This document shows positions 9,413 to 64,000 of a DNA stretch of 64,000 nucleotides, piece by piece (position 1 is the first letter of the stretch; every line of letters starts with the position of its first letter). Source of the stretch: Tetramitus jugosus (taxonomy: Eukaryota; Heterolobosea; Eutetramitea; Acrasida; Vahlkampfiidae); the NCBI GenBank assembly GCA_937625935.1, contig OW569388.1, positions 336,225 through 400,224 on the forward strand, in the 5' to 3' direction. The notes beneath the pieces were generated by a model, which did not search any database, had not been told where the DNA came from, and saw nothing but the letters and a program-made list of their open reading frames with translations. Made by a program: the position numbers and the translations under genes.

Positions 9413-9535
9413 GTTTGTTCAATTTAAGTGTGTTTCGTCTTCAAGACAAAGCTCCGACTTCAGCCGCTCGTGGATACAATAAATCACAATTCTCAAAGTT
9501 TCTCACTCAAAAAACCTACAAGCACGTCCATTTAT

Positions 9536-25434: not shown

Positions 25435-28299
25435 TCAAATAAAAGTGATGAGATATTCAGGGTATGCTCTTGAATTCTCATAAATAATGAAAATGTTTCC
25501 ATCTGGACTGTTGACCGCATCATATCTGATGCTGTGTGCAATATCAACACCTGTGTTCTTCACTGGCGGCATCGTGATACTGTTATCGTTGCTCATCTTG
25601 ATTGCATCACCCACAGCAACTTTGGCCAGAAACATTTGCTTTGTGTTTGTTGATTGCTTGGTGTGGGCATACCCACCACCAGAGTAGGAAGCGTCATTTG
25701 CAAAGTAACATCCTCTTCCCCACATTCCTTGTTGAGAGTGACGCATATCAAATCCAACTTCATCTTCATAGACTTGCTTTGGAGGTGTTGATTTCGTTCC
25801 ATGGAATAGGTATCGTTCGTTTGCGGCACCTCCATTCTTCATCTCGATCAGTTCTCTCTGGTTGACATACTTCTTCCACAACCATCGATTCTGAATTCGC
25901 TCCACTTTGATAATACGACATTGTGGGAGAGTATGTTTCACCCTGGCACTCACACTAATGTGCTCTCGATTTGTAGCATACAAATTAACTAACCTACAAT
26001 TCTCAGTTTGAGTGGTCCAATGTTCTGGATACTTCATCGAGCTTGGTTGTTGTGACTCTGCACGAAGAATGATGTTTTCTGCTGCGTCCAACTTCTCTTT
26101 AATTCCATTTAGTGCAAAGAACTGTGAATCTCCTTCATTCATTGCAATCACTTCGACATCGGGCATGTGCTTGATCAATTTTCGAAGCTTACGAAGAGTT
26201 TGAGAAGTGTTTGTCAGCTTCCGAACTCCAATGAGTTTGTTAAGCAACTCGAACAAATCGTTCTTTGCCTTTGCAATGTTGGAAGGCCTTCCCACAAGCT
26301 CAATAGTGACTTTCTCATCATATTGAGCACGAGGCGGAGTGTATTTCTCTTCTTTCCTCCTCATATGGCGTTGGAATTGAGTAGCACTGTTTTGTTGAAT
26401 GTGCTTTCCATTTTGATAGTCATAAACAATGTAATAGTTTTGTTTTTCGTCATCAATCATTCTCGATAAGCCAATTTCTATGTATCGCTCCTTTTGTTGA
26501 TATCCCTGTTCGATTTTTTCAGCATTTTCAAAGGAGTACTCTTGCTCAACTTTTTCATCATCAATCCACACCCAGCTGCATAAAGTTCTCTGATGATCTT
26601 TCGTAGCACCCACATTATTCTTTCTGATCAACACCATTTCGACCTCTGTTTCGTTCATCATACGGTTCTTTAAAGTCTCCGCCACAGAGTATTGTATTTT
26701 GCTCAAGGATAGTTGTGTACGATGAAGAGATTGTTGGATCTCGAGCTGGAGTTCTTCGATATCTCTGGTAATATCTTGAGTATGCTGCTTATCAACTTTG
26801 AATGTGAGGCCTTCTTCCCTAGCCCTCTGTTGGAATTTTGCTCCATACTTGGCCGCAATTTGATCCACATCCTCTTTCTTCATTAGAATTCTCATGAACA
26901 ACCTGCATGGCACATTGACGTTTATAGGTGAGGTGGCTGTAGGACACACAGACCGCACGAGTTCATCTATTGTGTCCAAAAGTCCAGAACTCACGCAAGT
27001 GATATTAAGCACAACTCCCGAAACAGGCTTCGGATCTTCCATTGTGAAGATGAAACTGTTCTCTCCTTTTTGCATTTCTTCCAACCTTTTCTGAAGAGAC
27101 CTTCTTGTGGTTGCGAGCAGATTCTTTGGGAGTTCATATCGCAATTGTTGAACAATTAATGACTCCTTAACGGCTTTCAATTCTTTCATGACATTCTCGA
27201 CTGCTTCTTTCTTTCCTTCAATCTTAAAAGCACCATTTTCCTCCTTAATACTAACTGTCTTGGCAATCTCTGATTTGGGGATAGTAAATTGTTTAAGAAA
27301 AGTCTTTTGCCCCTTTTCTCTTCCGCTGAATGTCAGAACATCTGTTTTGACATCTTTCTCATCTAAAAACCTGTTGACCAATTGAATTGCTTCAACAATC
27401 CCTTTTGATCCAATTCCATTGAAATCTAATCCTAGATTCTGAAACACAATAGTGACTTTCAGTTTGTTCACTTCGCTCATTAGTTTTGAATCTTTGACAA
27501 GTTTGATTCTCTCTACACACAATGGCAGGTGCATGCTCGGAAATATCATCAGGAGGGCCTTGTGATATTCATCTACATCGCTCTTCACAGGGCTGGTCAT
27601 TTCGATGTATCCTTCATTCCAGGCAATTTTCTGAAAAGAAGAGCGTACGGTAGGCCACTCCTCCGATAACAGTTCCAATTCTTTCTGCACATCAGAGCTC
27701 CAACTCACTTTTACGTACAGTCTCATCTTCTTTCGGTGAATGTCTTTCTTGGTAGCACTAATTGTCCAAGTATTATTACTACTAATTGACACGGTTTCGG
27801 AAACATTTGAAACAGAAAGAACATGATCTTGGGCACTGTACTCTTTGAAGAACATGGATGGTTCACGAACTTCCTTGACATTCAATACTTGAATAAGATA
27901 GTCCTTGAGAATGGAATACTTTTGCTCATCACCTACAAAGGCCATCCAAATTAAATTGCTGGCCGAGGCACTCTGATAAAACTGCAAAAAGTAGCCGCCC
28001 TGAAAGTAAAACTCACAAAAGTCTTTCAACATCATTCTGTTGTCTGGAGCAGTAGTAATCACTGCCTTTTTACTGGTGAGCCCTTGCTCTAGGTCATCTA
28101 TGATGCATGATAAATTGTGTCCAGATAATTCAATGGTTTTGTTTGTTGGGTACTCGAATTGGACTTCACTGAGGCAAGGTGCCAAAAATTGTTTCACATA
28201 GCGCACGGCCAATGGTGAAGAAAATTGGAGGATTCGTCTCTCTGGTTTCTTCTTCTGGATGTCCTTTGTGTGCTTCTTTCTTGGTCGGCCTGAACTCAT
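25435..28299 (-). CDS. PARP14-like mono-ADP-ribosyltransferase, paralogue 1
   Basis: ATG at 28299, 954 residues. The N-terminal two thirds contain repeated KH-like/RNA-binding-like segments (LKVTIVFQNLGLDFNGIGSK and similar). A WWE domain lies at about 575-650 (SWVWIDDEKVEQEYS...YYIVYDYQNGKHIQQN). The C-terminal ART domain spans about 770-954: LFHGT with His833, GRGCYFA with Tyr865, and NIFIIYENSRAYPEYLI. The residue matching PARP1 Glu988 is Ile, so the triad is H-Y-I, typical of mono-ADP-ribosyl transfer. WWE domains bind iso-ADP-ribose or ADP-ribose. It is the first of four tandem paralogues and closest to paralogue 2, with long stretches nearly identical. It has no macro domain. Confidence 0.88.
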   Translation of the reverse strand: MSSGRPRKKHTKDIQKKKPERRILQFSSPLAVRYVKQFLAPCLSEVQFEYPTNKTIELSGHNLSCIIDDLEQGLTSKKAVITTAPDNRMMLKDFCEFYFQGGYFLQFYQSASASNLIWMAFVGDEQKYSILKDYLIQVLNVKEVREPSMFFKEYSAQDHVLSVSNVSETVSISSNNTWTISATKKDIHRKKMRLYVKVSWSSDVQKELELLSEEWPTVRSSFQKIAWNEGYIEMTSPVKSDVDEYHKALLMIFPSMHLPLCVERIKLVKDSKLMSEVNKLKVTIVFQNLGLDFNGIGSKGIVEAIQLVNRFLDEKDVKTDVLTFSGREKGQKTFLKQFTIPKSEIAKTVSIKEENGAFKIEGKKEAVENVMKELKAVKESLIVQQLRYELPKNLLATTRRSLQKRLEEMQKGENSFIFTMEDPKPVSGVVLNITCVSSGLLDTIDELVRSVCPTATSPINVNVPCRLFMRILMKKEDVDQIAAKYGAKFQQRAREEGLTFKVDKQHTQDITRDIEELQLEIQQSLHRTQLSLSKIQYSVAETLKNRMMNETEVEMVLIRKNNVGATKDHQRTLCSWVWIDDEKVEQEYSFENAEKIEQGYQQKERYIEIGLSRMIDDEKQNYYIVYDYQNGKHIQQNSATQFQRHMRRKEEKYTPPRAQYDEKVTIELVGRPSNIAKAKNDLFELLNKLIGVRKLTNTSQTLRKLRKLIKHMPDVEVIAMNEGDSQFFALNGIKEKLDAAENIILRAESQQPSSMKYPEHWTTQTENCRLVNLYATNREHISVSARVKHTLPQCRIIKVERIQNRWLWKKYVNQRELIEMKNGGAANERYLFHGTKSTPPKQVYEDEVGFDMRHSQQGMWGRGCYFANDASYSGGGYAHTKQSTNTKQMFLAKVAVGDAIKMSNDNSITMPPVKNTGVDIAHSIRYDAVNSPDGNIFIIYENSRAYPEYLITFI

Positions 28300-28379
28300 T
28301 TTGTGTTTTTGTTTGGTGTGATTGCCGAAAACTTTCCTCCTTCAAGTGTCAAGATATTTTCCGCCTTTTTTGGAGGACG

Positions 28380-28404
28380 CTCCTTCATTTTTGTTGGGTC
28401 GGAG
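28380..28404 (-). promoter_or_regulatory. Shared PARP-gene promoter motif (paralogue 1)
   Basis: CTCCTTCATTTT followed by a short spacer and GTCGGAG (given on the plus strand) lies 81-105 bp upstream of the paralogue 1 ATG. The outer CTCC/GGAG are inverted. The same motif precedes paralogues 2 and 3 at similar distances, which suggests common regulation. Confidence 0.5.
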
Positions 28405-28505
28405 ATTCAATGGTCCACCGGAGATTCAATGAACCAAGGCTTGTGTCACTAAAAGCGAACAAAAAGTGATCTTTATTTCACTTGACGTCTTGAACGATCG
28501 AATCG

Positions 28506-31466
28506 TTACTTAAAAGTAATGAGATACTCGGGATATGCCCTTGAATTCTCATAAATAATGAAGACTAGGCAATTTTGAGTAATACCACTGACTGCATCAT
28601 ATCTGATGCTGTGTGCAATATCAACACCTGTGTTCTTCACTGGTGGCATCGTGATACTTTTGTCGCTGTTCATCTGAATTGCATCACCCACAGCCACCTT
28701 AGCCAGAAACATTTGCTTCTCATTGGTTGATGGCAGGGTGTGGGCATACCCACCACCAGAATATGAAGCATTCTTCGCAAAATAGCACCCTCTTCCCCAC
28801 ATTCCTTGTTGAGAGTGACGCATATCAAATCCAACTTCATCTTCATAGACTTGCTTTGGAGGTGTTGATTTCGTTCCATGGAATAGGTATTGTTCGTTTG
28901 AGTCACCTCCATTCTTCATCTCGATCAGTTCTCTCTGGTTGACATACTTCTTCCACAACCATTGATTCTGAATTCGCTCCACTTTGATAATACGACATTG
29001 TGGAAGAGTATGTTTCACCTTTGCACTCACACTAATGTACTCTTGACATGATGAATCTAGGTCGATCAACTTGCAATTCTCAGTTTGAGCAATCCAATGT
29101 TTTGGGTACTTCATCGAGGTCGGTTGTTGTGACTCTGCACGAAGAATGATGTTTTCTGCTGCATCTAACTTCTCTTTCAATCCGCTTATTGCAAAGCACT
29201 GTGAGCCTCCTTCATTCAATTCAATCACTTCGACATCGGGCATGTGCTGGATCAATTTTCGAAGCTCAAAAAGAGTTTGAGAAGTGCTTGTCAGCTCTCG
29301 CTCTCCAATGAGCTTCTTAAATCGAGCGTCCAGATCGTTCTTAGCTTTTGCAATGTTGGTAGGCCTTCCCACAAGCTCAATAGTGACTTTCTCATTCTCT
29401 CGAGCACGAGGCGGAGTGAATTTCTCTTCTCTCCTCCTCATATGGCGTTGGAATTGAGTGACACTGTTTTGTTGGATGTGATTCCCATTTTGATAGTCAT
29501 AAATAATGTAATACTTTTGTCTTTTGTCATCAAGCATTCTCGATAAGTTAATGACTATGTATCGCTCCTTTTGTTGATATCCCTGTTCGATTTTTTCAGC
29601 ATTTCCAAAGGAGTAATCTTGTTCTACTTTTTTATCATCAATCCACACCCAGCTGCATAAAGTTCTCTGATGATCTTTCGTAGCACCCACATTATTCTTT
29701 CTGATCAATGTCATTTCGACCTCTGTTTCGTTCATCATACGGTTCTTTAAAGTCTCCGCCACAGAGTATTGTATTTTGCTCAAGGATAGTTGTGTACGAC
29801 GAAGAGATTGTTGAATCTCGAGCTTGAGTTTTTCGATGTCTCTGGTAATATCTTGAGTATGCTGCTTATCAACTTTGAATGTGAGGCCTTCTTCCCTAGC
29901 CCTCTGTTGGAATTTTGCTTTATACTTGGCCGCAATTTGATCCACATCCTCTTTCTTCATTAGAATTCTCATGAACAACCTGCATGGCACATTGACGATT
30001 ATAGGTGAAGTGGCTGCAGGACATACAGACCGCACCAGTTGATCTATTGAGTCCAAAAGTCCAGAACTCACGCACGTGATGTTAAGCACAACTCCCGAAA
30101 CAGGCTTCGGATCTTCCATTGTGAAGATGAAACTGTTCTCTCCTTTTTGCATTTCTTCCAACCTTTCCTGAAGCAACTTTCTTGTGTTTGCGAGCAGATT
30201 CTTTGGGAGTTCATATCGCAATTGTTGAACAATTAATAGTTCCTTAACGGCTTCCAATTCTTTCATAAACTTCTCAACTGCTTCTCTCTTTCCTTCAATC
30301 TTGAAAGCACCCTCTTCGTCCTTAATACTAACTGTCTTGGCAATCTCTGATTTGGGGATAATAAATTGTTTAAGAAAGATCTTTTGCCCCTTATCTTTTC
30401 CGTTGAATGTCAGAACATCTGTTTTGACATCTTTCTCATCTAAAAACCTGTTGACCAATTGAATTGCTTCTTCAACAATCCCTTTTGATCCAATTCCATT
30501 GAAATCTAATCCTCTCTTCTTAAATACTATAGTGACTTTCAGTTTGTTCACTTCGCTCAGTATTAGTTTTGAATCTTTGACAAGTTTGATTCTTTCTACA
30601 CACAATGGCAGGTGCATGCTCGGAAATATCATCAGGAGGGCCTTGTGATATTCATCTACATCGCTCTTCACAGGGCTGGTCATTTCGATGTATCCTTCAT
30701 TCCAGGCAATTTTCTGAAAAGAAGAGTGTACGGTAGGCCACTTCTCCGATAACAGTTCCAATTCTTTCTGCACATCAGAGCTCCAACTCACTTTTACGTA
30801 CAGTCTCATCTTCTTTCGGTGAAGGTCTTCCTTGGCACTAATCGTCCAAGTATTGCGTTCTGAAGCAACACTACTGCTGATTGATACGTTATCGGAAACA
30901 TCTGAAACGGAACGAACATCATCTTGGGCACTGTACTCTTTGAAGAACATTGATAGTTCAGAAAAGTCCTTGACATTCAATACTTGAATAAGATAGTTCT
31001 TGAGAATTGAATACTTTTGCTCATCACCTACAAAGGCCATCCAAATTAAATTGCTGTCCGTGACATTCAGATAAAACTGCAGAAAGTACTCATCCTGGAG
31101 ATAAAATTCACAAAAGTCCTCCAACATCATCCTGTTTTCTGGAGCAGTTTTAGTCATCACTGCCTTTTTCTTGGCGAGCCTTTTGTCTAGACGATCTATG
31201 ATGAATGATAGATTGTGTCCAGATAATTCAATGGTTGTCGAGTGGTATTCCCATTTAATCTTCCCACGAGGTGAAGCACCTCTCATTTGTTTCACGTATG
31301 ATACGGCAAAAGGTGAAGAAAATTCAAGAATTCTTCTATCTGGCTTCTTTTGTTCTTGTGTGGTGTGCATTTTCTTTGCTTGGTTTGGCTGTTTGGGAGT
31401 GGACGGTGGAGGTGCCTTTGTGCCTTTTGCAACCCGTTTCTTCAATCCTTTACCACTTGAACTCAT
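28506..31466 (-). CDS. PARP14-like mono-ADP-ribosyltransferase, paralogue 2
   Basis: The start is placed at the ATG at 31466 because MSSSG matches the N-termini of its paralogues; the frame is open 32 codons further upstream. 986 residues. Layout as in paralogue 1: basic N-terminus, KH-like repeats, one WWE (about 604-680, SWVWIDDKKVEQDYS), ART domain with His863 in LFHGT and Tyr895 in GRGCYFA. The position of the third triad residue is Val (LVFIIYENSRAYPEY), again incompatible with polymerisation. Before IIYEN it reads SGITQNCLV where the other three read NSPDGN or NSLDGN, a local replacement. There is no macro domain. Nucleotide identity with paralogue 1 is very high over 26.6-26.9/29.7-30.0 kb. 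Confidence 0.88.
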   Translation of the reverse strand: MSSSGKGLKKRVAKGTKAPPPSTPKQPNQAKKMHTTQEQKKPDRRILEFSSPFAVSYVKQMRGASPRGKIKWEYHSTTIELSGHNLSFIIDRLDKRLAKKKAVMTKTAPENRMMLEDFCEFYLQDEYFLQFYLNVTDSNLIWMAFVGDEQKYSILKNYLIQVLNVKDFSELSMFFKEYSAQDDVRSVSDVSDNVSISSSVASERNTWTISAKEDLHRKKMRLYVKVSWSSDVQKELELLSEKWPTVHSSFQKIAWNEGYIEMTSPVKSDVDEYHKALLMIFPSMHLPLCVERIKLVKDSKLILSEVNKLKVTIVFKKRGLDFNGIGSKGIVEEAIQLVNRFLDEKDVKTDVLTFNGKDKGQKIFLKQFIIPKSEIAKTVSIKDEEGAFKIEGKREAVEKFMKELEAVKELLIVQQLRYELPKNLLANTRKLLQERLEEMQKGENSFIFTMEDPKPVSGVVLNITCVSSGLLDSIDQLVRSVCPAATSPIIVNVPCRLFMRILMKKEDVDQIAAKYKAKFQQRAREEGLTFKVDKQHTQDITRDIEKLKLEIQQSLRRTQLSLSKIQYSVAETLKNRMMNETEVEMTLIRKNNVGATKDHQRTLCSWVWIDDKKVEQDYSFGNAEKIEQGYQQKERYIVINLSRMLDDKRQKYYIIYDYQNGNHIQQNSVTQFQRHMRRREEKFTPPRARENEKVTIELVGRPTNIAKAKNDLDARFKKLIGERELTSTSQTLFELRKLIQHMPDVEVIELNEGGSQCFAISGLKEKLDAAENIILRAESQQPTSMKYPKHWIAQTENCKLIDLDSSCQEYISVSAKVKHTLPQCRIIKVERIQNQWLWKKYVNQRELIEMKNGGDSNEQYLFHGTKSTPPKQVYEDEVGFDMRHSQQGMWGRGCYFAKNASYSGGGYAHTLPSTNEKQMFLAKVAVGDAIQMNSDKSITMPPVKNTGVDIAHSIRYDAVSGITQNCLVFIIYENSRAYPEYLITFK

Positions 31467-31534
31467 CTTGTGACACTTGTTGGTTTTTCGGAGGTGGGAT
31501 TTTGTTATCCGGCGGCACTTAAAAAAAGGTAGAC

Positions 31535-31558
31535 CTCCTTCATTTTGCGAAGTCGGAG
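31535..31558 (-). promoter_or_regulatory. Shared PARP-gene promoter motif (paralogue 2)
   Basis: CTCCTTCATTTT, then GCGAA, then GTCGGAG (plus-strand reading), 69-92 bp upstream of the paralogue 2 ATG. It matches the motif at 28380 and 35224 apart from the spacer. The GCGAA in the spacer recurs in the weaker version upstream of paralogue 4 (39778 onward). Confidence 0.5.
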
Positions 31559-31724
31559 TCAAATAATTTTCCTTCTAATTGGAACTTCAAGGAGGAGAAA
31601 TGAAGTCACAAGGGAACTCGAATGAAGTCTAAAGAAAACAATACCTTTACTTACGAAAGGAACCTTCTTCAAGTAAGAAGCGACTTGACGATTTCGTCGT
31701 ATCTTTTCCATCGTTCAGATATCA

Positions 31725-34700
31725 TTACTGAAAAGTGATTAGATACTCGGGATATGCCCTTGAATTCTCATAAATAATGAAAATGTTTCCATCTGGACTG
31801 TTGACTGCATCATATCTGATGCTGTGTGCAATATCAACACCTGTGTTCTTCACTGGCGGCATCGTGATACTGTTATCGTTGCTCATCTTGATTGCATCAC
31901 CCACAGCAACTTTGGCCAGAAACATTTGCTTCTCATTGGTTGATTGCTTGGTGTGAGCATAACCACCAGAGTAGGAAGCATTATTTGCAAAGTAACATCC
32001 TCTTCCCCACATTCCTTGTTGAGAGTGACGCATATCAAATCCAACTTCATCTTCATAGACTTGCTTTGGTGGTGTTGATTTCGTTCCATGGAATAGGTAT
32101 CGTTCGTTTGCGGCACCTCCATTCTTCATCTCGATCAGTTCTCTCTGGTTGACATACTTCTTCCACAACCATCGATTCTGAATTCGCTCCACTTTGATAA
32201 TACGACATTGTGGAAGAGTATGATTCACCTTTGCACTCACACTAATGTACTCTTGGCATGACGAGTCAAGGTTAATCAACTTACAATTTTCAGTTTGAGT
32301 GGTCCAATGTTTTGGGTACTTCATCGAGGTCGGTTGATGTGACTCTGCACGAAGAATGATGTTTTCTGCTGCGTCCAACTTCTCTTTCAATCCTTTGAGG
32401 GTAAAACATTTTGAACCGTCACCGTCTTTCGTTTCAATCACTTCAATATCACGGATGTCCTTGATCAATTCTCGAACCTCAAGAAGAGTTAGGGAGACTC
32501 TTGTCATATTGAGCTTCCGAAATCCAATTAAACTCTTGAACAATTCAGCTAGAACGTGTTTTGCTTTTGGGATGTTGGACGGTCTTCCCAACAGTTCAAT
32601 AGTGCAGACTCTCTCATCTCTTTGAGGCGAACGTGAAATATTCCTTTCGAGAGCAGTAGATAGGGTGTATTTCTCCTCCTTTCTTCTCATCTGGCGTTGG
32701 AACTTAGTGGCACAGTTTTGTTGAATATGGTTCCCATTTTGATAATCATAAAAAATATAGTAGTCTTGGCTTCGGTCATCAAGCATTCTTGATAAGTTAA
32801 CAACTATATATTGCTCCTTATGTTGATATCCCTTTTCAATTTTTGCAGCATTTTCTAATGAGTAATATTGCTCAACTTTGCCATCATCAATCCATGACCA
32901 ACAATATTTGGTTGGCAATTTTTTCTGCAGTTTTCTCTCAAAGTTGGTCTCGGTATTCTTCTGAATCTCTCGATCAAAGTCAATCTCATATGTTTTGGTA
33001 CCTATTGAGAGCTGAAACTGTTTTTTCCCCTCATTGAATGCCTTGGAAATAATCTTGTTACAAGCAGCAGTATAGTTCTTCAATTCATTGTCGTCATTGA
33101 TATAGTACCAGCAATATTCTTGAGATGAAGATGCTCCTTTCAATTTGGTGAGATCTCTGCTAAGTTTCGATACTTGATTATTTCTGGCCCAAACGATCTC
33201 AACCTCTGTTTCGTCCATCCTACGATTCAATTGAGCTTTTGCGGTCTTCAATACAGAATATTCCATTTTACTCAAGACTACTTGCTCACTACAAAGCGAT
33301 TGTTCAATGTCGAGCATCAGTTTTTTGATATCTCTTGTAATATCTTGAACATGATTCTCATTCACTTTGAATGATAGGCAGTCCACCTCACGAACTCTCA
33401 GTTTGTCTGCAAAGAGTTTTGCTTTATACTTGGCTGCAATTTGTTCCACATCCTCTTTCTTCATGAGAATTCTAATGAACAATCGGCATGGAACCTTGAT
33501 AATGGTCTCGGAGGATGTCGAACGAAGAAGTGTCATGAAAGCCTCCTTTGCTTCACGAACACTCTCTTGACTCAACCCTCTTATACAAATCCTCATGTAC
33601 TGTTTGGAGATCTCCACATCCCACTCCTTATTAAAGTTTTGCTCGTTCAATTGGTTCACTGTCTCGAGATCACGTCTTGTGTAATGAATGACATCTGAGG
33701 TCACTTCACGGCAAACTGACTGTACCATTGGATCAATTTCGGCTAGTAGTTTAGAGTCCATACAAGTGACGGTAACAACGACTTTGGAGGAATCGTACAG
33801 TTTTTTCACGTTGAAAATGAGCTCGGTATCCGCTCTCTTTGCTATTTCTTCCAACTTTTTCTTCAACTGGTCTCTCGCAAAATAAGAAGCATTCGTATCT
33901 GTTACATCATACTCTAATTGTTTTAGAATAATTTGTTTCCTCAATTTCTTCAGTTCTGTGAATACTTGTTCGACATCTGTTCCTTTTCCACTGATAGTGA
34001 ATGCAGTATCTTCATGCTTAATATTCACTCCCTTAAAAATCATTGATTTAGGAACAATAAACTCTTTGATAAAAGCTATTCGACTCTTGTCTTCTCCGCA
34101 GAATTTAAATTGTTCGATCTTAACATCTTTCTCATCTAGAAACTTGTTGACCAATTGAATTGCTTCGTCAACTGTTTCTTGTGACCCAATTCCATAGAAA
34201 CCTAATCCTTGTTTGTTGAATACCATGGTTACTTTCAGTTTGTTCACATTGTTTTGCAATGATTTTGACTCTTTGACGAGTTTGAGTCTCTTTGCACTCA
34301 ATTTCAGACTCTTATTAGGTAGCAATTGCAGAGCAGCTTTGTGATACTCCTCCACATCTCTCTTCATAGGGCTGGCTATTTCGATATGTCTTTCAGCCAC
34401 ACTCTCCTTTTTAGCTTTCTGGATCGAATAGTGTACAGTAGGCCACTTCTCCAACAAATTGTCCAGCTCTTTCTGTAGATCTGAGTCCCAATGGACTGAC
34501 ACTATCAATCTAATCTTCTTTCGGTGAAGGTCATCCTTGGCACCAGTACTCAAATTATTAAACTCAGAAGCTACGCTGATACTACTAATTGACACCGCGT
34601 CGGAGACGTCTGAATCAGAATTTTCATCCTCTTGGACATTGTTTTCCTCTTTGAAGCACATTGATAGGTCAGAAATAACCTTGACATCTAGTACTCTCTT

Positions 34701-35129
34701 CAGATAGTTATTGAAAAGAGTAAATCTCTCCTCATTACCTGCAAAAGCAATCCAAATGGAGTTTCTATTGGAGGGATTCGGGTAAAGCTCCAGAAAGCAT
34801 TCATCCTTCAGAAAAAATTCATAGAACTCTTCCAACATTGCTCTGTTCTCTTGAGGAGCTTGTGTTATCATTGCCTTTATCTTGCAAAGGTGATCCTTCA
34901 TACGATCGACAACGACCGATAAATTGTGTCCCGACAATTCAATAGTTTTGTTTGCTGGGTGATACTCGCATTGGATCTCACTGAGGGAAGGCGCCAACAA
35001 TTTTTTCACATAGGGTAGGGCCAATGGCGAAGAAAATTGGAGGATTCTTCTCTCTGGTTTCTTCTTCTGGGTGTGCTTTTTCTTTGGTGAGAAGACCTCA
35101 TCCGAAGACCTTTGACCACTTGAACTCAT
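31725..35129 (-). CDS. PARP14-like mono-ADP-ribosyltransferase, paralogue 3 (two WWE domains)
   Basis: The start is taken at the ATG at 35129 (MSSSG as in the paralogues); 1134 residues. KH-like repeats occupy about 40-640. A first WWE lies at about 670-730 (EYCWYYINDDNELKNY...YEIDFDREIQKN) and a second at 741-815 (YCWSWIDDGKVEQYYS). The ART domain has His1014 (LFHGT), Tyr1046 (GRGCYFA) and Ile in the third position (NIFIIYEN). Just before the first WWE the chain reads DLTKLKGAS, which matches DITKLKVAS at the start of the macro domain of paralogue 4; the rest of the macro domain is absent. It is therefore intermediate between paralogue 4 and the shorter 1 and 2. Confidence 0.88.
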   Translation of the reverse strand: MSSSGQRSSDEVFSPKKKHTQKKKPERRILQFSSPLALPYVKKLLAPSLSEIQCEYHPANKTIELSGHNLSVVVDRMKDHLCKIKAMITQAPQENRAMLEEFYEFFLKDECFLELYPNPSNRNSIWIAFAGNEERFTLFNNYLKRVLDVKVISDLSMCFKEENNVQEDENSDSDVSDAVSISSISVASEFNNLSTGAKDDLHRKKIRLIVSVHWDSDLQKELDNLLEKWPTVHYSIQKAKKESVAERHIEIASPMKRDVEEYHKAALQLLPNKSLKLSAKRLKLVKESKSLQNNVNKLKVTMVFNKQGLGFYGIGSQETVDEAIQLVNKFLDEKDVKIEQFKFCGEDKSRIAFIKEFIVPKSMIFKGVNIKHEDTAFTISGKGTDVEQVFTELKKLRKQIILKQLEYDVTDTNASYFARDQLKKKLEEIAKRADTELIFNVKKLYDSSKVVVTVTCMDSKLLAEIDPMVQSVCREVTSDVIHYTRRDLETVNQLNEQNFNKEWDVEISKQYMRICIRGLSQESVREAKEAFMTLLRSTSSETIIKVPCRLFIRILMKKEDVEQIAAKYKAKLFADKLRVREVDCLSFKVNENHVQDITRDIKKLMLDIEQSLCSEQVVLSKMEYSVLKTAKAQLNRRMDETEVEIVWARNNQVSKLSRDLTKLKGASSSQEYCWYYINDDNELKNYTAACNKIISKAFNEGKKQFQLSIGTKTYEIDFDREIQKNTETNFERKLQKKLPTKYCWSWIDDGKVEQYYSLENAAKIEKGYQHKEQYIVVNLSRMLDDRSQDYYIFYDYQNGNHIQQNCATKFQRQMRRKEEKYTLSTALERNISRSPQRDERVCTIELLGRPSNIPKAKHVLAELFKSLIGFRKLNMTRVSLTLLEVRELIKDIRDIEVIETKDGDGSKCFTLKGLKEKLDAAENIILRAESHQPTSMKYPKHWTTQTENCKLINLDSSCQEYISVSAKVNHTLPQCRIIKVERIQNRWLWKKYVNQRELIEMKNGGAANERYLFHGTKSTPPKQVYEDEVGFDMRHSQQGMWGRGCYFANNASYSGGYAHTKQSTNEKQMFLAKVAVGDAIKMSNDNSITMPPVKNTGVDIAHSIRYDAVNSPDGNIFIIYENSRAYPEYLITFQ

Positions 35130-35223
35130 TTTGTGTTTGTTGTTTTTGTTGTTTTTGTTGATGGGCCGAAAACTTTGTTCCTCCTTCAAGTGTCAAGATA
35201 TTTTCCGCCTTTTTTGGAGGATG

Positions 35224-35248
35224 CTCCTTCATTTTTGTTGGGTCGGAG
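35224..35248 (-). promoter_or_regulatory. Shared PARP-gene promoter motif (paralogue 3)
   Basis: Same motif as at 28380 (CTCCTTCATTTT ... GTCGGAG), 95-119 bp upstream of the paralogue 3 ATG. The whole gap 35135-35345 is nearly identical to 28300-28500, including a second TCCTCC...GGAGGA pair around AAGATATTTTCCGCC, so promoter and terminator appear to have been copied as a unit. Confidence 0.55.
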
Positions 35249-35347
35249 ATTTAATGTTAATTGAGTGGGGACCTCCCAAGGATTGTGTCACTAAAAGCGA
35301 ACAAAAAGTGATCTTTATTTCACTTGACGTCTTTAACGATCGAATCG

Positions 35348-38300
35348 TTACTTAAAAGTGATGAGATACTCGGGATATGCCCTTGAATTCTCATAAATAA
35401 TGAAAATGTTTCCGTCCAGACTATTGACTGCATCATATCTGATGCTGTGTGCAATATCAACACCTGTGTTCTTCACTGGAGGCATCGTGATTTTGTTGTC
35501 TTCCCTCATCTGAATTGCATCACCCACAGCAACTTTAGCCAAAAACATTTGCTTTTCATTTGCCGATGACAGTGTGTGGGCATAAACTCCACCAGAATAT
35601 GAAGAATTCTTCGCAAAATAGCACCCTCTTCCCCACAAACCTTGTAGCGAGTGACGCATATCAAATCCAACTTCATCTTCATAGATTTGCTTTGGAGGTG
35701 TTGATTTCGTTCCATGAAATAAATATTGTTCGTTTGAGTCACCTCCATTCTTCATCTCGATCAGTTCTCTCTGGTTGACATACTTCTTCCACAACCATCG
35801 ATTCTGAACTCTCTCCACTTTGATAACTTGGCATTGTGGAAGGGTTTCACTCATCCTTGTACAAACATGAATATACTCTTGATTCGATGAATCTAAAGGA
35901 ACCAGCTTACAATTTTCAGTTTGAGTGATCCAATGTTTTGGATACTTGATTGAGCCTGATTGTTGTGACTCTGCGTGAAGAACAACATTTTCTGCTGCAT
36001 CTAATTGATCCTTCACACCATGTAAGGCAAAACATTTTGTATCATCGTCCTCCTTGATTTCAATCACCTCAACTTCATTGATGTCCTTGAGTAACTCTTG
36101 AATAGCAGGAAGAGTTTGAGAGATTTTTGTCATATTCAACTTCCTAACTGCAATCACCTTCTTGAACAACTCAGACAGTGCATCCTTTGCTTTTTGAATA
36201 TTAGGAGTTCTTCCGAGAAGATCTATTGTGTAAATTTTATCGACTTCTTGAGATGTAGTAGTTGTAGTATACTCTTCAATAGCAGCAGGTGGAGTGTATT
36301 CTACTTCTCTTCTCATCATCTGACGTTGAAATTTCGTGCCACAGTTTTGTTGGATGTGATTTCCATTTTGATAGTCATAAATAATGAAATAGTCCTGTTT
36401 TAGGTCATCAAGCATTCGAGAGAGGTTGATTAAGATGTATTGCTGCCTTTGTTGATATCCCTGTTCGATTTTTGCAGCATTCTCTAATGAATACTGTTGT
36501 TCGACTCTTCTATCATCAATCCATGACCAGCTGTATTGTGTGGGCAATGTCCTTTGGAGTTTCCTCTCAAAGTTGGTCTCTGTATTCTTCTGAGTCTCTC
36601 GATCAAAGTCAATCTCATATGTTTTGTTACCGATTGCCAGTTGAAAATTTTTCTTTCGTTCATGGAAAGCCTTGGATATCATCTTGTTGTAGGAGGGAAT
36701 ATAGCTCTTCCATTCATTATCGTCATCAACATAGTACCAGCAATATTCCTGATGAGAAGTAGTCGAACTCTCGGGAGTTGTAGACTTGATCTGATCATTG
36801 TCATCATCAGAATTATCAGAAAAGCTGGAGTCAACATATGTGAAAGCAGGATTCTCGTGAGCCACTGCTCTGAACACTGTTCTCCATGTTGGAATCACCT
36901 TCTTGTCTTGATGAACCAAATAGCAAGCTTTTAGATGCTGAGGTTTTTCTTTTTCAACAAATTCAAACACAGCTTTGGTTATCACAGCTAGACAACGTTC
37001 CAAAGGAAAACCGTAGATCCCTGCTGAAACCGCAGGAATAGCAACTCCCCATAGGTGACTTTTCTCTGCCTCTCTCAAAGCGTTCATAATTGCTTGATTC
37101 AACAAGAAATCTTCATTGGAGAGACCACCAGACCAAATAGGACCAACAACATGAATAATTTTCTCGCATCGCTTTAACTTACCAGAGGAAGTCGTCATCG
37201 CTGCTCCAGTTGTCAAATTTCCATGCTGTTGGATATATTGGATGCACTCTTTGATACAGTCTGGCCCAGCAGCATCAGCAATCACCTTGGCTATTCCACC
37301 CGCGTGGTTAAGTTCAACATTAGCTGCGTTTACAATGCTTGCCACTTTCAATTTGGTGATGTCGACGCATTTCAAGGCAATAGAGAACTCAGAGGTAGAA
37401 GCCTTCGAAACAAAGCCATTTTTGGCCTGAACTAACTCGACCTGGGACTTGCTCAATATACGATAGAGTTGATCTGTCGCAGCTTTTAACGCAGCATGTT
37501 CAATCTTGCTCAAAATTACTTGCTCACGATTAATAGATTGTTGAATATCATATTTCAGTTTTTCGATATCTCTTGTAATGTCTTGGACATGTTTCTTATC
37601 TGCTTTGAACATTATAGAGTCCACATCACGATGTTTAAGCTTGTTTGCAAAGAATTTTGCTTTATACTTGGCTGCAATTTGCTCCACATCCTCTTTTCTC
37701 ATTAGAGTTCTGATAAATAATCTGCAGTACACCTTGACAATTGTCTGAGAAGATGTTGAATGCAAGATGGCCATTAGGGCTTCCTTTGCGTTGGCTACGT
37801 CCTCTTGACTTAATCCTCTAATAAATATTTTCATGGTGTGTTTGAAAATCTCTACACCCCATTCCTCATTAAAGTCTTTTTCGCTTAACCTGTTCACCTT
37901 CTCTAGAGCATCTCTTGCGTATTGTATGGTGTCTGAAGTGGATTCGCGACAAATACTCTGTACCATTTGATCTATTTCGTCCATGAGGTCAGAATCCATA
38001 CAGGTAATGTTGATAGCAACTCTCGAACCGGAATCCTTTGAATCCTTCATTTTGAAAATGAGCTCTGTGTTCTCCCCCTTTTGTATTTCTTCAAATTTTC
38101 TCTGAAGCTGTTTTCTTACAAAACTAGATGCATTCGAGTCGGTGATTTCATATCCCAATTGTTTGACGATTATTTTCTTTCTCACTTCCTTCAGTTCTTT
38201 CAAAACTTTCTCAACAGCTGTTCTCTTTCCTTTAATCTTGAAAGCACTCTCTTCATCCTTAATACTAACGACCTTGAACGCCTTGGACTTTGGCATAATA

Positions 38301-39661
38301 AACTTTTTGATAAAGATCATTCGGCTCTTTTCACCTCTACTGAATTTGAGCACTTCAGTCTTGACATCTTTCTCGTCCAAAAACTTGTTGACCAATTCAA
38401 TTGCGTCGGCAATCCCTTTGGAGCCAATTCCATAGAAACCTAATCCTTGTTTGCTAAATATAATATTGACTTTCAATTTGTTCACCTTGTCTTGTATTGG
38501 CTTGGAATCTTTGACAAGCTTGATTCTCTCTGCACTCAATTTCAGACTTTTGTTTGGAAAAAGCTTCATAACAGCCTTGCAATATTCCTCTACATCACTC
38601 TTCATAGGGCTGGTCATCGAGATGTATCTTTCATCCCAGCCCTTGTTTCCAGCACTCTTCTGGATCGAATATTGTACAGTAGGCCACTTCTCCAACAGCC
38701 TATCCAGCTCTTTTTGCACTTCAGAATTCCAACGCTCTTGTACCATGAGTCTAACCTTCTTGTGATGGACATCTTCCTTGAGATCAGTACCTAAATTAAG
38801 TTCTGATGCTACACTAACACTACTCACTGACATATCGGAATCTGAACTGTAGTCAACAACAACATCGTGCTCACTGAAACTCACAGATGGCTCAGAAATG
38901 TTTGAAGTAAGCTTGACTCTCATGAGGTAGTTCTTGAGAAGAGTATGCTTCTGCTCACTGCCTACGTAAGTAACCCAAATCGAATCTCTGTTGTTAAAAT
39001 TATAGGATAAATCAAAGTATTCATCCTTCAAGCTAATATCTCCAAATTCCTCCAACTTTGTTCTGTTTCCGTTGGCAGTTTGACACATGATTGCCTTTAC
39101 CTTTGAAAGATGAACCCGCATAAGATCGACGATTGATGTAGAATTATGTCCGAATAATTCAATGGTGTTGGTGTCCGAGTGATATGTCCATTGTACATTA
39201 TCACAGAGTGAAGAAGCTTTAGGTGCAAAGAAACTCTTCACATATGGAATAGCCAATGGTGAAGAAAATTGGAGAACTCTCTTCTCTTGGTGCTGAGTTT
39301 CTTTGGGAAGCTTTTTCTTGGCTCTTGTCGACTGTTTTGGTGGAGATGATGGAGCAGCAGTCACCTTGCCTTTTTCAACTACTTTCTTTGGTGTGGTCAA
39401 CCCCTGAAAAGTACATTCGAATTGATGACCGAGATACTTCCTGTTGTTCAATATCTTACTTGCTCTTACAGCCTGACCCTCTGATTTGTAATTCAAGTAA
39501 GCATACAGAGTGTCATAAGCATCAATCTTTGGCTTCTTAATGACAAAGGAATCGGGCTTATCAACATTGAGGTCTTGAAGGAGCTTAGCGAACTGATCGT
39601 TAGTCACTGTGGACGCAATGTTCTTGATATATACAGTAAAGTTAGATGAAGATGAACTCAT
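35348..39661 (-). CDS. PARP14-like mono-ADP-ribosyltransferase, paralogue 4 (RRM, macro, two WWE, ART)
   Basis: ATG at 39661, 1437 residues. RRM at 7-85 (FTVYIKNIASTVTNDQF ... FECTF). KH-like repeats from about 125 to 745. Macro domain at about 753-930 with SIVNAANVELNHAGGIA and AVSAGIYGFP, the canonical ADP-ribose loops. WWE domains at about 972-1022 (CWYYVDDDNEW) and 1040-1115 (YSWSWIDDRRVEQQYS). ART domain from about 1243, with His1316 (LFHGT), Tyr1348 (GRGCYFA) and Ile in the third position. RRM-KH-macro-WWE-ART is the architecture of vertebrate PARP14, an antiviral and RNA-linked mono-ART. The start is 250 bp from the divergent PIN gene. Confidence 0.92.
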   Translation of the reverse strand: MSSSSSNFTVYIKNIASTVTNDQFAKLLQDLNVDKPDSFVIKKPKIDAYDTLYAYLNYKSEGQAVRASKILNNRKYLGHQFECTFQGLTTPKKVVEKGKVTAAPSSPPKQSTRAKKKLPKETQHQEKRVLQFSSPLAIPYVKSFFAPKASSLCDNVQWTYHSDTNTIELFGHNSTSIVDLMRVHLSKVKAIMCQTANGNRTKLEEFGDISLKDEYFDLSYNFNNRDSIWVTYVGSEQKHTLLKNYLMRVKLTSNISEPSVSFSEHDVVVDYSSDSDMSVSSVSVASELNLGTDLKEDVHHKKVRLMVQERWNSEVQKELDRLLEKWPTVQYSIQKSAGNKGWDERYISMTSPMKSDVEEYCKAVMKLFPNKSLKLSAERIKLVKDSKPIQDKVNKLKVNIIFSKQGLGFYGIGSKGIADAIELVNKFLDEKDVKTEVLKFSRGEKSRMIFIKKFIMPKSKAFKVVSIKDEESAFKIKGKRTAVEKVLKELKEVRKKIIVKQLGYEITDSNASSFVRKQLQRKFEEIQKGENTELIFKMKDSKDSGSRVAINITCMDSDLMDEIDQMVQSICRESTSDTIQYARDALEKVNRLSEKDFNEEWGVEIFKHTMKIFIRGLSQEDVANAKEALMAILHSTSSQTIVKVYCRLFIRTLMRKEDVEQIAAKYKAKFFANKLKHRDVDSIMFKADKKHVQDITRDIEKLKYDIQQSINREQVILSKIEHAALKAATDQLYRILSKSQVELVQAKNGFVSKASTSEFSIALKCVDITKLKVASIVNAANVELNHAGGIAKVIADAAGPDCIKECIQYIQQHGNLTTGAAMTTSSGKLKRCEKIIHVVGPIWSGGLSNEDFLLNQAIMNALREAEKSHLWGVAIPAVSAGIYGFPLERCLAVITKAVFEFVEKEKPQHLKACYLVHQDKKVIPTWRTVFRAVAHENPAFTYVDSSFSDNSDDDNDQIKSTTPESSTTSHQEYCWYYVDDDNEWKSYIPSYNKMISKAFHERKKNFQLAIGNKTYEIDFDRETQKNTETNFERKLQRTLPTQYSWSWIDDRRVEQQYSLENAAKIEQGYQQRQQYILINLSRMLDDLKQDYFIIYDYQNGNHIQQNCGTKFQRQMMRREVEYTPPAAIEEYTTTTTSQEVDKIYTIDLLGRTPNIQKAKDALSELFKKVIAVRKLNMTKISQTLPAIQELLKDINEVEVIEIKEDDDTKCFALHGVKDQLDAAENVVLHAESQQSGSIKYPKHWITQTENCKLVPLDSSNQEYIHVCTRMSETLPQCQVIKVERVQNRWLWKKYVNQRELIEMKNGGDSNEQYLFHGTKSTPPKQIYEDEVGFDMRHSLQGLWGRGCYFAKNSSYSGGVYAHTLSSANEKQMFLAKVAVGDAIQMREDNKITMPPVKNTGVDIAHSIRYDAVNSLDGNIFIIYENSRAYPEYLITFK

Positions 39662-39911
39662 TGAAGCACTTGTTGGTTTTTTTGATATGGTGATGGGAAA
39701 GTTTTGTTTGTTGGCCCAAATATTTAAGTGACAGTCGCTGCGAATTGTAATGTCCCTTCAATTTTTGAAGGGCGATCCTCCTGCAGTTTTTGTGCGAAGC
39801 ACCAAAAATTCCTTTTATGAAGAAAAATCGCCCCACCTTTGATGTCCGGAGTTCTTGTGATGTTTCCTTCAACTTCAGCAGAAAGTAATATTCAGAAAAG
39901 AGAGAGAGAAG

Positions 39912-40598
39912 ATGAACACGCTCGGCATGGAACAATATCTTGCGGAACAAATATTGCTCAGAGAAGCAATTCACAACTATGGCCAAAGCTTGTTCAGAGA
40001 GAATCAAAGCGAGTCAGCTACAATTAACAAAACTGAAATCAATGAAAAAGTATTGACCGAGAACACCAAACGATATGGCTCTGCGATTGTGCTTGACACG
40101 AACACTTACATTCTTCAATCTGAAATAGTTCGCCAGACCATGAAGAACCGAAAATTGACTGTCATTGTTCCCATTTCCGTAACACAAGAATTGGACCGAC
40201 TAAAATCCAGCTCTGATCACCACTGTTCAAACATGGCCAGAAAATGGAACAAGTTTATGAACGAACAGAGCGCAGTCTTGGCCAAGGGAGAAGAATGTGA
40301 GTGGAACATTCGTTTTCAAAACAGTGAGGAATACGAGAGAGCAGAGAGCCTCTATGAAGCTAAAAAAGCCGATGACAGAATCATTAGCTGTGCTCAGTAC
40401 TTTAGTGAGAACAAACACTTGGTTCCACGAAACACCTTGACCAGGAAGAACAACAAGAATAATAATTTGCCAACTCCAAAAAGAGTCGTCCTCATCACAA
40501 ATGACAACAATATGGCCACCATGGCCAGATCTCGCATGGTCAACGTAACCATGCTTGATGACTTGGTGCGAAAAATGAATTCTCCCAATCATCGGTGA
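39912..40598 (+). CDS. PIN-domain RNase
   Basis: ATG at 39912, 228 residues. The PIN fold carries all expected acidic residues: Asp62 in IVLDTNTYIL, Glu93 in SVTQELDRL, Asp154/155 in KKADDRIIS and Asp198 in LITNDNNMA. These coordinate metal in PIN nucleases such as SMG6, Rrp44 and Swt1, so the protein is probably an active single-strand RNA endonuclease. The N-terminal 55 residues are helical and unassigned. It is divergently transcribed from PARP paralogue 4 (250-bp shared upstream region) and lies just upstream of the macro-domain gene on the same strand (77 bp between stop and next ATG). Its position in an ADP-ribosylation cluster suggests, but does not prove, a linked RNA-decay role. Confidence 0.8.
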   Translation: MNTLGMEQYLAEQILLREAIHNYGQSLFRENQSESATINKTEINEKVLTENTKRYGSAIVLDTNTYILQSEIVRQTMKNRKLTVIVPISVTQELDRLKSSSDHHCSNMARKWNKFMNEQSAVLAKGEECEWNIRFQNSEEYERAESLYEAKKADDRIISCAQYFSENKHLVPRNTLTRKNNKNNNLPTPKRVVLITNDNNMATMARSRMVNVTMLDDLVRKMNSPNHR

Positions 40599-40675
40599 AA
40601 TAAATGGTTTTCTCCGTAATCTCAAAAGAGCGCCAAACACCACCCCATTTCAAAAAACTTAAACAACAACAAAAA

Positions 40676-41863
40676 ATGATCATATTCACACAACAACAAC
40701 GCCTCATGCAACGGAATGCTCAACAATGGCTCACTCGTCACTTATCCCACCAGCGAAAAACAATCGTACCATCAGTACCTCACAACATGAGATTCTTCTC
40801 ACAACAACAACAACCATCATTCGAACAACAACAACAAGTAGGAAGAACCTATGTTCCATCAACAAGTGACTCATCTGAAACTTCATCAACTCAACAATCA
40901 TCATTTACATCAGATTTAGAAAAGGAACGAATCATGGCACAACGCATCCGTTCCACTTCTCATGGCGGGAAAAGCGGAGAAATTCCAAAATTCCGACAAC
41001 AAGGCGGCAGAAGTAAACTATCTACGATTTTGATGCGATTGGTGATATCGGGTGGATTAGGTGTGGCATGCATGGTTGTTGCCTATGGTTACTATGTCAC
41101 CAACAAGGATAAGCTAAGCTTTACAAAAAATTTGGAAGAAGAAAAAAAGAAAAAGACTGGTCTTGATGGTGGCGATGGTGATGGTGGTGTGATTTCGGCC
41201 AACACTGTACAAAAAGGATTTTTCTCAGTGGGTAGAACAAAAACGCTTCGATATCAGTACATTGTCACACGTTCCAGAATCTATGAATTGGAAGTGTGTC
41301 GCGGTGAGCTATTCAATGAAAAGACTGATGCGATTATTGTGGCAACGACTGAGAACCTACAGCCACATGACTCTGCGTTGACTGACAAGAGTGGAAGGGA
41401 GCAGACAATGAAACAGTTGCAAGAGGCTCTCGTGAAGAATGGAGGACCATTTAAGCCTGGTCAAGTCGTAGTCACTGAAGTGAAAAGTGATGATCATTTA
41501 AATTGCAAGTACTTGATCCATGCGGTGACACCAATGTACGAAGGAGGTCAAAAATTGGAAGTTTTCCAATTGTCACAAGCCATTTACAATGCTCTGTTGG
41601 AGGCAGATAAGCTCAGTCTCGAATCAGTGTCCATTCCAGCGATTGGAACTGGAAATGCTCGTTTCCCTCGAGAAAAGTGTGCCAATGTTCTCTTTGACTC
41701 TGTGTTTACGTACTTTAATGACAGAGATAGCACTGTGGCTGCTGCTCGTCAAAACAAGATGTCTCTTCACAATGTTCGTTTCACGAATTCAGAAGAACAA
41801 TCCATTGAGGCATTTGTCAAGGAGTACGACCACAAGAAGAGAATGGGAAAGATTTTGGTGTAA
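40676..41863 (+). CDS. Membrane-anchored macro-domain protein, likely mitochondrial
   Basis: ATG at 40676 (the frame is open upstream without an ATG), 395 residues. The N-terminus is Gln/Arg/His rich, without acidic residues until about 60, and ends in NMRFFSQQ, like a mitochondrial presequence. One membrane segment follows at about 120-140 (ILMRLVISGGLGVACMVVAYGYYV). The C-terminal macro fold begins at about 190: FNEKTDAIIVATTEN, KYLIHAVTPMYEGG, VSIPAIGTGNARFP. The usual NAAN is replaced by VATTEN and the GGIA loop is missing, while the AIGTG loop is kept, so it may bind rather than hydrolyse ADP-ribose. It lies next to the PARP array. Confidence 0.72.
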   Translation: MIIFTQQQRLMQRNAQQWLTRHLSHQRKTIVPSVPHNMRFFSQQQQPSFEQQQQVGRTYVPSTSDSSETSSTQQSSFTSDLEKERIMAQRIRSTSHGGKSGEIPKFRQQGGRSKLSTILMRLVISGGLGVACMVVAYGYYVTNKDKLSFTKNLEEEKKKKTGLDGGDGDGGVISANTVQKGFFSVGRTKTLRYQYIVTRSRIYELEVCRGELFNEKTDAIIVATTENLQPHDSALTDKSGREQTMKQLQEALVKNGGPFKPGQVVVTEVKSDDHLNCKYLIHAVTPMYEGGQKLEVFQLSQAIYNALLEADKLSLESVSIPAIGTGNARFPREKCANVLFDSVFTYFNDRDSTVAAARQNKMSLHNVRFTNSEEQSIEAFVKEYDHKKRMGKILV

Positions 41864-63217: not shown

Positions 63218-64000
63218 GGGTTGGGGTTTGGGTTTGGGTTTGGGTTTGGGTTTGGGTTTGGGTTTGGGTTTGGGTTTGGGTTTGGGTTTGGGTTTGGGTT
63301 TGGGTTTGGGTTTGGGTTTGGGTTTGGGTTTGGGTTTGGGTTTGGGTTTGGGTTTGGGTTTGGGTTTGGGTTTGGGTTTGGGTTTGGGTTTGGGTTTGGG
63401 TTTGGGTTTGGGTTTGGGTTTGGGTTTGGGTTTGGGTTTGGGTTTGGGTTTGGGTTTGGGTTTGGGTTTGGGTTTGGGTTTGGGTTTGGGTTTGGGTTTG
63501 GGTTTGGGTTTGGGTTTGGGTTTGGGTTTGGGTTTGGGTTTGGGTTTGGGTTTGGGTTTGGGTTTGGGTTTGGGTTTGGGTTTGGGTTTGGGTTTGGGTT
63601 TGGGTTTGGGTTTGGGTTTGGGTTTGGGTTTGGGTTTGGGTTTGGGTTTGGGTTTGGGTTTGGGTTTGGGTTTGGGTTTGGGTTTGGGTTTGGGTTTGGG
63701 TTTGGGTTTGGGTTTGGGTTTGGGTTTGGGTTTGGGTTTGGGTTTGGGTTTGGGTTTGGGTTTGGGTTTGGGTTTGGGTTTGGGTTTGGGTTTGGGTTTG
63801 GGTTTGGGTTTGGGTTTGGGTTTGGGTTTGGGTTTGGGTTTGGGTTTGGGTTTGGGTTTGGGTTTGGGTTTGGGTTTGGGTTTGGGTTTGGGTTTGGGTT
63901 TGGGTTTGGGTTTGGGTTTGGGTTTGGGTTTGGGTTTGGGTTTGGGTTTGGGTTTGGGTTTGGGTTTGGGTTTGGGTTTGGGTTTGGGTTTGGGTTTGGG
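63218..64000 (+). repeat. Telomeric repeat array (TTTGGG)n
   Basis: About 130 nearly perfect 6-bp units run to the last base of the window. The first units are slightly irregular (GGGTTGGGG). The G-rich strand runs 5' to 3' toward the right end, as expected at a chromosome terminus. The unit differs from the common TTAGGG by A to T at the third position. Confidence 0.93.

Follow-up and report, generated by a model that had tools for sequence, protein, structure and literature searches.

PARP14-like proteins that carry one or more macrodomains have been described, and Perina and others place their ancestor early in the unikonts, with the macrodomain-PARP of Paramecium as a probable second gain (available text of PMC4245714). 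The same text records clade 3 as a whole in all supergroups, though not as macro-PARPs, and describes clustered PARP14-like duplicates in lancelet. As far as the accessible parts of the other papers cited here go, Citarelli and others found clade 3 only in animals, Dictyostelium and Tetrahymena, in a sample that included Naegleria (PMC2964712), the age of PARP14 is quoted as about 700 million years, and PARP9 and DTX3L have a bidirectional promoter in common (PMC13224862). Here we describe a comparable locus in a 64,000-nucleotide stretch of DNA (the window), which corresponds to bases 336225-400224 of the 400,224-base contig C45 in the 26.3-Mb, 56-contig genome of a probable heterolobosean. 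The locus comprises a tandem array of four PARP genes, P1 to P4, and a divergently oriented gene for a PIN-domain protein next to P4.

We interpret the locus, with a probability of about 0.7, as the product of a lineage-specific expansion that began with a single PARP14-type mono-ADP-ribosyltransferase gene, with domain loss, recombination and a linked PIN gene for a putative RNase. No PARP14-like array in protists is described among the titles listed in our literature searches, which did not cover subscription papers. Members of clade 3 in non-unikonts, PARP14-like genes in tandem and partial duplicates are already known kinds; what is new is that the macro-PARP plan occurs in this probable host lineage, that the domain losses form a nested series and that a PIN gene is linked.

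Domain architecture of the array

P1 to P4 are four intact, long, single-exon genes lying side by side, each with its PARP catalytic domain at the C-terminus (Table 1). This ADP-ribosyltransferase (ART) domain scores above the cut-off in all four copies, and all four retain a triad of H and Y with a hydrophobic third residue (I or V). The nearest ARTs in the PDB, ranked by score, are PARP12, PARP15 and PARP14. P1 to P4 very likely function as mono-ADP-ribosylation machinery. CCCH zinc fingers are absent from the array PARPs in the Pfam scan, which took in 21 of the 47 window frames of at least 150 amino acids.

The most complete set of modules is found in P4. A macrodomain N-terminal to the ART is present in this copy alone (one of four), where it is single. 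WWE domains precede the ART in P3 and P4 above the cut-off and are placed in P1 and P2 by alignment. One of the approximately eight KH-like units of P4 (residues 573-636) matches solved KH domains. The KH stretch of P4 contains three GXXG words (338, 408 and 413), none of which lies, by eye, between the two helices of a unit. A Foldseek search with the N-terminal model of P4 was set aside: its sole match at E ≤0.001 was a type II secretion chain, followed by mixed alpha/beta folds, and the KH domains of KHNYN and N4BP1, at E ~0.02 among many others, are not used as evidence.

Relatives and comparison with PARP14

A search of 5.77 billion proteins, in which 6564 candidates were scored with a cut-off of E ≤0.001, yielded 18 matches to P4. 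The best of these, P0001, comes from a JGI metagenome contig and aligns co-linearly with P4 over its full length, RRM region included, at 43-44% identity. It is followed by P0002 (JGI), by P0003 and P0004 (ENA, contigs of 1.1 and 2.4 Mb) and then, at lower coverage, by animal PARP14-like proteins. Two protein markers agree on the host lineage. The host glucokinase is nearest to PDB entry 6da0 (322 bits, against 229 and 200 for the next two), and its AdoHcyase is nearest to 5v96 (825 bits), closely followed by 6uk3 (812 bits); 6da0 and 5v96 are Naegleria fowleri structures and 6uk3 is from Acanthamoeba. A heterolobosean host is plausible on these matches. CYP51 was set aside as a marker: among 18 P450 matches, eight loci (seven of which gave a frame) and four more were inspected for motifs, and the one compared with the PDB best matched cholesterol 7-alpha-hydroxylase. 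Naegleria does not appear among the named relatives of P4, of the PIN protein or of the neighboring macrodomain protein, many rows carrying no name.

In an ART tree of 26 rows, P1 to P4 form one set (support 98/97) that is joined by P0001 and P0002 (97/99). The array groups with five of the six animal PARP14-like rows (99/95), separate from the 11 other PARP matches of the host, whose genome contains at least 15 PARP and at least seven macrodomain matches.

The organization of P4 resembles that of animal PARP14 in its RRM and putative KH-like front, in a macrodomain nearest to PARP14 macrodomain 1, in its WWE modules and in a predicted C-terminal mono-ART. In contrast to human PARP14, P4 has one macrodomain instead of three, one RRM instead of three and two WWE domains instead of one, and its KH-like unit follows the WWE region, whereas the available text of PMC13224862 places that unit before the WWE in the human protein. 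The host is also different, being probably non-animal and perhaps non-unikont. The single macrodomain bars an identification as PARP14 itself, not as a PARP14-like protein.

The initial annotation had read four adjacent ART genes with H-Y-I/V triads, the fourth with RRM and macro domains, as a clustered, duplicating PARP14-like family; both gene content and family are borne out, the latter by the co-linear P0001 and the grouping in the ART tree. Its statement that the domain order is that of PARP14 holds as a similarity, with the differences just listed. Its comparison with the vertebrate PARP9/DTX3L/PARP14 locus stands for the architecture and fails for the gene content: no RING or DTC domain occurs in ten flanking frames, taken as single frames with introns not modelled, so that no Deltex-type gene is seen at the locus. 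Genome-wide searches for Deltex (DTC) and Tet/JBP gave no match, and neither did their controls.

Domain loss, selection and recombination

P3 lacks the RRM and the macrodomain and retains a remnant of the macrodomain start, while P2 and P1 are also devoid of the KH unit at about residues 577-640 and of WWE 1. The nested absences, together with the remnant in P3, suggest an order of losses, and P1 to P3 look like duplicates that underwent stepwise domain loss. Ratios of nonsynonymous to synonymous change (dN/dS) are 0.26-0.44 in all six pairs, which indicates purifying selection as a pairwise mean.

The relationships among the copies change along the genes. Silent identity between P2 and P1 is 0.92 in the KH body and 0.83 in the ART; between P3 and P1, it is 0.68 in the body and 0.90 in the ART (Fisher 5.7e-9). 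In agreement with the latter value, the ART tree pairs P1 with P3 (95/92), and the upstream regions of these two genes are 93% identical over 198 bases. P1 is thus the sister of P2 in the KH body and nearest to P3 in the ART and upstream region, which identifies it as a mosaic. A stricter run-length test is strong only for P2-P1 (p 0.0002), with the run lying within the KH body. For the upstream regions of P3 and P2, the score of 12.8 exceeds all 200 shuffles (maximum 10.6), and the four remaining pairs do not exceed 200 shuffles. A promoter common to all four copies was rejected, the similarity being clear for P3/P1 only and weak for P3/P2.

The tandem duplication recalls that of the PARP14-like genes in lancelet (available text of PMC4245714), and the presence of shorter copies derived from a parent gene is reminiscent of PARP15 and PARP9. 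The array copies drop the macrodomain and keep the triad, whereas PARP9 and PARP15 retain macrodomains and PARP9 is inactive, according to the accessible parts of PMC13224862 and PMC4038475.

The PIN gene and its linkage to P4

The PIN gene starts 250 bp from the start of P4, in a head-to-head arrangement. The acidic positions of its PIN_4 domain are intact in all three homologues aligned, and the nearest solved PIN domain by sequence is that of SMG6/EST1A (E 1.2e-4), compared with which the protein described here is small and stands alone. No KH domain was found in its 228 residues with Pfam. The genome has two further PIN_4 matches, three in all, one being Rrp44/Dis3-like and the other an otherwise unplaced frame of 817 amino acids.

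Two relatives of the PIN protein were recovered in the protein search. P0019 is 95% identical and comes from an ENA contig of 784 bases, and P0020 shows 55% identity over 74% of the query and comes from a JGI contig of 10,049 bases. P0001, the best relative of P4, is likewise listed from a JGI contig of 10,049 bases. Because the sizes agree exactly, with rough odds of about 1 in 10,000 by chance, P0001 and P0020 look to be encoded on one contig, which suggests that the PARP-PIN linkage is conserved in a distant relative.

PARP9 and DTX3L are likewise arranged head to head; the likeness is one of gene orientation, the partner here being a PIN protein instead of an E3 ligase. The association of a PARP-family protein with a PIN-type nuclease has a parallel in ZAP (PARP13) and KHNYN (available text of PMC12709174). 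Unlike that pair, the array PARPs have no CCCH fingers, the PIN protein carries no KH domain, and the pairing is known from gene neighborhood alone.

Downstream of the PIN gene, a frame for a macrodomain protein opens 5 bp past the PIN stop codon and has a second ATG at 40676. Its macrodomain best matches PARP14 macrodomains 1 and 2, the second more strongly, and then macroH2A. If translation is counted from the second ATG, seven basic residues and one acidic residue fall among the first 60, and the N-terminal stretch looks mitochondrial by its composition; the two closest relatives (98 and 69%) are listed as beginning after this basic stretch. The four relatives found (98, 69, 27 and 26% identity) come from contigs of 3079, 3004, 40545 and 3260 bases, and none was found on a 10,049-base contig, though a distant copy could have escaped the search. 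We left the macrodomain gene out of the unit because none of the four is from a contig of that size.

The divergent arrangement of P4 and a PIN gene with intact acidic residues, as initially annotated, is thereby confirmed, and the proposal that the macrodomain gene belongs to the same unit is not supported. Of the adjacency anticipated in related species, the PARP-PIN part seems to be kept and the macrodomain gene was not found there.

Genomic setting and other PARP-related genes

The features of the locus are collected in Table 1.

Table 1. Positions of the array genes, their domains and adjacent features within the window
Feature	Position	Strand	Description
P1	25435-28299	minus	954 aa; body P2-like, ART and upstream region P3-like (mosaic)
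P2	28506-31466	minus	986 aa; KH chain one unit shorter, WWE 2, ART with triad H-Y-V
P3	31725-35129	minus	1134 aa; KH chain, two WWE, ART; without RRM and macrodomain
Macrodomain-start remnant, P3	33102-33176	minus	DLTKLKGAS, compared with DITKLKVAS in P4; WWE 1 directly after
P4	35348-39661	minus	1437 aa; predicted PARP14-type mono-ADP-ribosyltransferase; presumed founder architecture
ART catalytic domain, P4	35351-35944	minus	Triad H-Y-I
KH-like unit between WWE 2 and ART, P4	35957-36244	minus	Inferred; model confidence low
WWE 2, P4	36302-36544	minus	Alignment to P0001 (two WWE stretches); kept in all four copies
WWE 1, P4	36551-36745	minus	Profile match
Macrodomain, P4	36857-37414	minus	Nearest is PARP14 macrodomain 1
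Chain of about eight KH-like units, P4	37535-39283	minus	Residues 127-709; from secondary structure of predicted model
RRM, P4	39386-39640	minus	Residues 8-92
Upstream region common to P4 and PIN gene	39662-39911		250 bp, head to head
PIN_4-domain protein	39912-40598	plus	228 aa; acidic residues intact
Single-macrodomain protein, one hydrophobic segment	40604-41863	plus	Neighbor of PIN gene; unit membership not supported
Telomeric GGGTTT tract	63224-64000	plus	Chromosome end, 23.6 kb from array

The distance between array and telomere is 23.6 to 37.8 kb. The telomeric repeat, GGGTTT (TTTGGG), is an uncommon one. It is present at all 12 further contig ends that were fetched (of 112 in the assembly), including the other end of C45. 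Since C45 ends in GGGTTT on both sides, it is apparently a complete chromosome, and to judge from these ends the assembly seems to run almost from telomere to telomere.

Five of the ten flanking frames have Pfam matches, namely a VIT/TPR/DUF2135 protein, a chloride channel, an RWP-RK factor, a SpoU methylase and an NPC1-like protein; the remaining five have none. The first of these, at 21955-25377, combines VIT, TPR and DUF2135 with a long proline-rich stretch and contains no PARP domain; VIT also occurs as a domain of PARP4. Farther from the array, RCC1 repeats are observed among the frames. Two probable mobile elements lie upstream of the array, to judge from their matches: a frame at 2951-5707 that matches reverse transcriptase (93 bits) and one at 9428-10924 whose match to Transposase_21 is weak and below the cut-off (22.9 bits).

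Elsewhere in the genome, a fifth relative of the array (L024:5597-7180; 528 amino acids) is located on the same chromosome, some 105 kb farther in, and adjoins a gene for an ankyrin protein. It comprises part of the KH chain and a macrodomain that shares 67% identity with that of P4; neither a WWE nor an ART domain is matched. Contigs C40 and C24 each carry a PARP-domain gene (L043 and L044), and the two are very close on the ART tree, the C24 match having one internal stop; on sequence grounds, they are a recent duplicate pair. An Ankyrin-WGR-PARP protein is encoded in a frame of 1796 amino acids (L050:2-4792); ankyrin together with PARP is recorded for Naegleria gruberi in the available text of PMC4245714. 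On contig C4, unlinked to the array, a protein (L041:1413-2699) carries a MIZ/RING-type zinc finger and two WWE domains with 31% identity to the WWE pair of P4, and is a possible partner on the ubiquitin side, of E3 type, as its domains suggest.

Alternative interpretations

Several points weigh against the expansion of a PARP14-type gene as we describe it. The RRM match of P4 is below the cut-off, KH domains have no Pfam support, and the ART part of a second structural model has low confidence and was left unused. The ART tree left out human PARP10 and PARP12; one of its host rows (C39) was cut at the wrong motif and another (C5) is long-branched, and Patella is the sole animal PARP14-like row to fall outside the group. 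Regarding recombination, the run-length test gives p values of 0.03 to 0.74 in the other five pairs, none surviving correction for six tests, and the higher silent identity of the ART may be in part codon constraint. The switch of the nearest copy of P1 is not explained by such constraint.

Other readings concern the role and origin of the locus. It is close to an even chance that the PIN gene is an incidental neighbor, held in a compact genome by chance or by a shared promoter, as the short gaps on both sides (5 bp between the PIN and macrodomain frames, 57 bp between P1 and the VIT gene) and the presence of a single informative relative would suggest. The equal contig size listed for both relatives (10,049 bases), despite 44-55% protein identity, argues against this, given the expectation, which is not a measurement, that little gene order should survive at such distances. 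Somewhat short of even, we place a general role in stress or ribonucleoprotein regulation, in which mono-ADP-ribosylation of ribonucleoproteins or of ubiquitin-pathway proteins would proceed with no part in infection. The KH-like units, which by eye have no GXXG loop at the expected place, would fit protein-protein use such as that of PARP14 KH8 with DTX3L (available text of PMC13224862), and the unlinked MIZ/RING-type protein with two WWE domains is compatible with it; on its own, this role leaves the repeated duplication and recombination at the locus unaccounted for. A bacterial or viral source of the PARP genes is very improbable. The P4 macrodomain is also near bacterial YmdB, but every relative of P4 that carries a name is eukaryotic, and the others have the same multidomain plan. 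With alignment A1, neither viral nor prokaryote contigs yielded a relative, a weak result given two peptide patterns each; a viral or prokaryotic origin was likewise rejected after scans with P0001, A1 and A4 gave none (few patterns each).

By analogy with the vertebrate proteins, an immune role of the array would be a fair guess. The fuller version, an immune island that, like PARP14 and its relatives in vertebrates, would provide cell-intrinsic defence against viral or intracellular bacterial infection, with foreign RNA cut by the PIN protein, is doubtful in our estimate. The PARP14-like architecture, the PARP-PIN linkage in the relative, and a pattern of duplication and domain loss that resembles the birth of PARP15 (accessible parts of PMC4038475 and PMC4245714) are in its favor. 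The mean pairwise selection is purifying, these being pairwise averages and not site-level values, the five flanking frames that Pfam recognizes are of ordinary kinds and the other five are without a match, and viral_contigs held no relative when searched with narrow peptide patterns. Less probable still, and speculative, is that a PARP14-type ART and a PIN RNase constitute an old, divergently transcribed, two-part RNA-restriction module of protists, independent of the ZAP-KHNYN pair of animals. The PARP family would then mark or sense ribonucleoproteins and the PIN protein would cut RNA, with the duplicated writers as the fast-changing recognition side of amoebal immunity.

Proposed function and implications

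For the expansion of a PARP14-type gene that we favor, the following model may be proposed. P4 keeps the plan of P0001: a front made of the RRM and the KH-like chain, which would bind RNA or protein, then a macrodomain, the WWE modules and, at the C-terminus, a predicted mono-ART. Three shorter writers would have arisen by tandem duplication, the RRM and macrodomain being lost first (P3) and then one KH unit and one WWE (P2 and P1), while recombination between copies would keep the catalytic ends alike as the KH fronts diverge. With alike ends and diverged fronts, the copies probably share one chemistry and have different partners. We infer that the enzymes most likely attach single ADP-ribose units to proteins (or RNA) at sites picked by the front. 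The P4 macrodomain probably removes or reads ADP-ribose, so that P4 could reverse or read the mark, and the PIN protein is probably a linked, perhaps co-regulated, ribonuclease.

The linkage of the PIN gene offers a direct, testable partner for the array, and one full-length gene with three natural domain-loss copies is a ready test of the role of each PARP14 domain. If the host is indeed heterolobosean, the locus widens the range of macro-PARPs beyond unikonts. A full RRM-KH-macro-WWE-ART protein in a probable heterolobosean and in a distant relative would make this architecture older, or more mobile, than has been stated.

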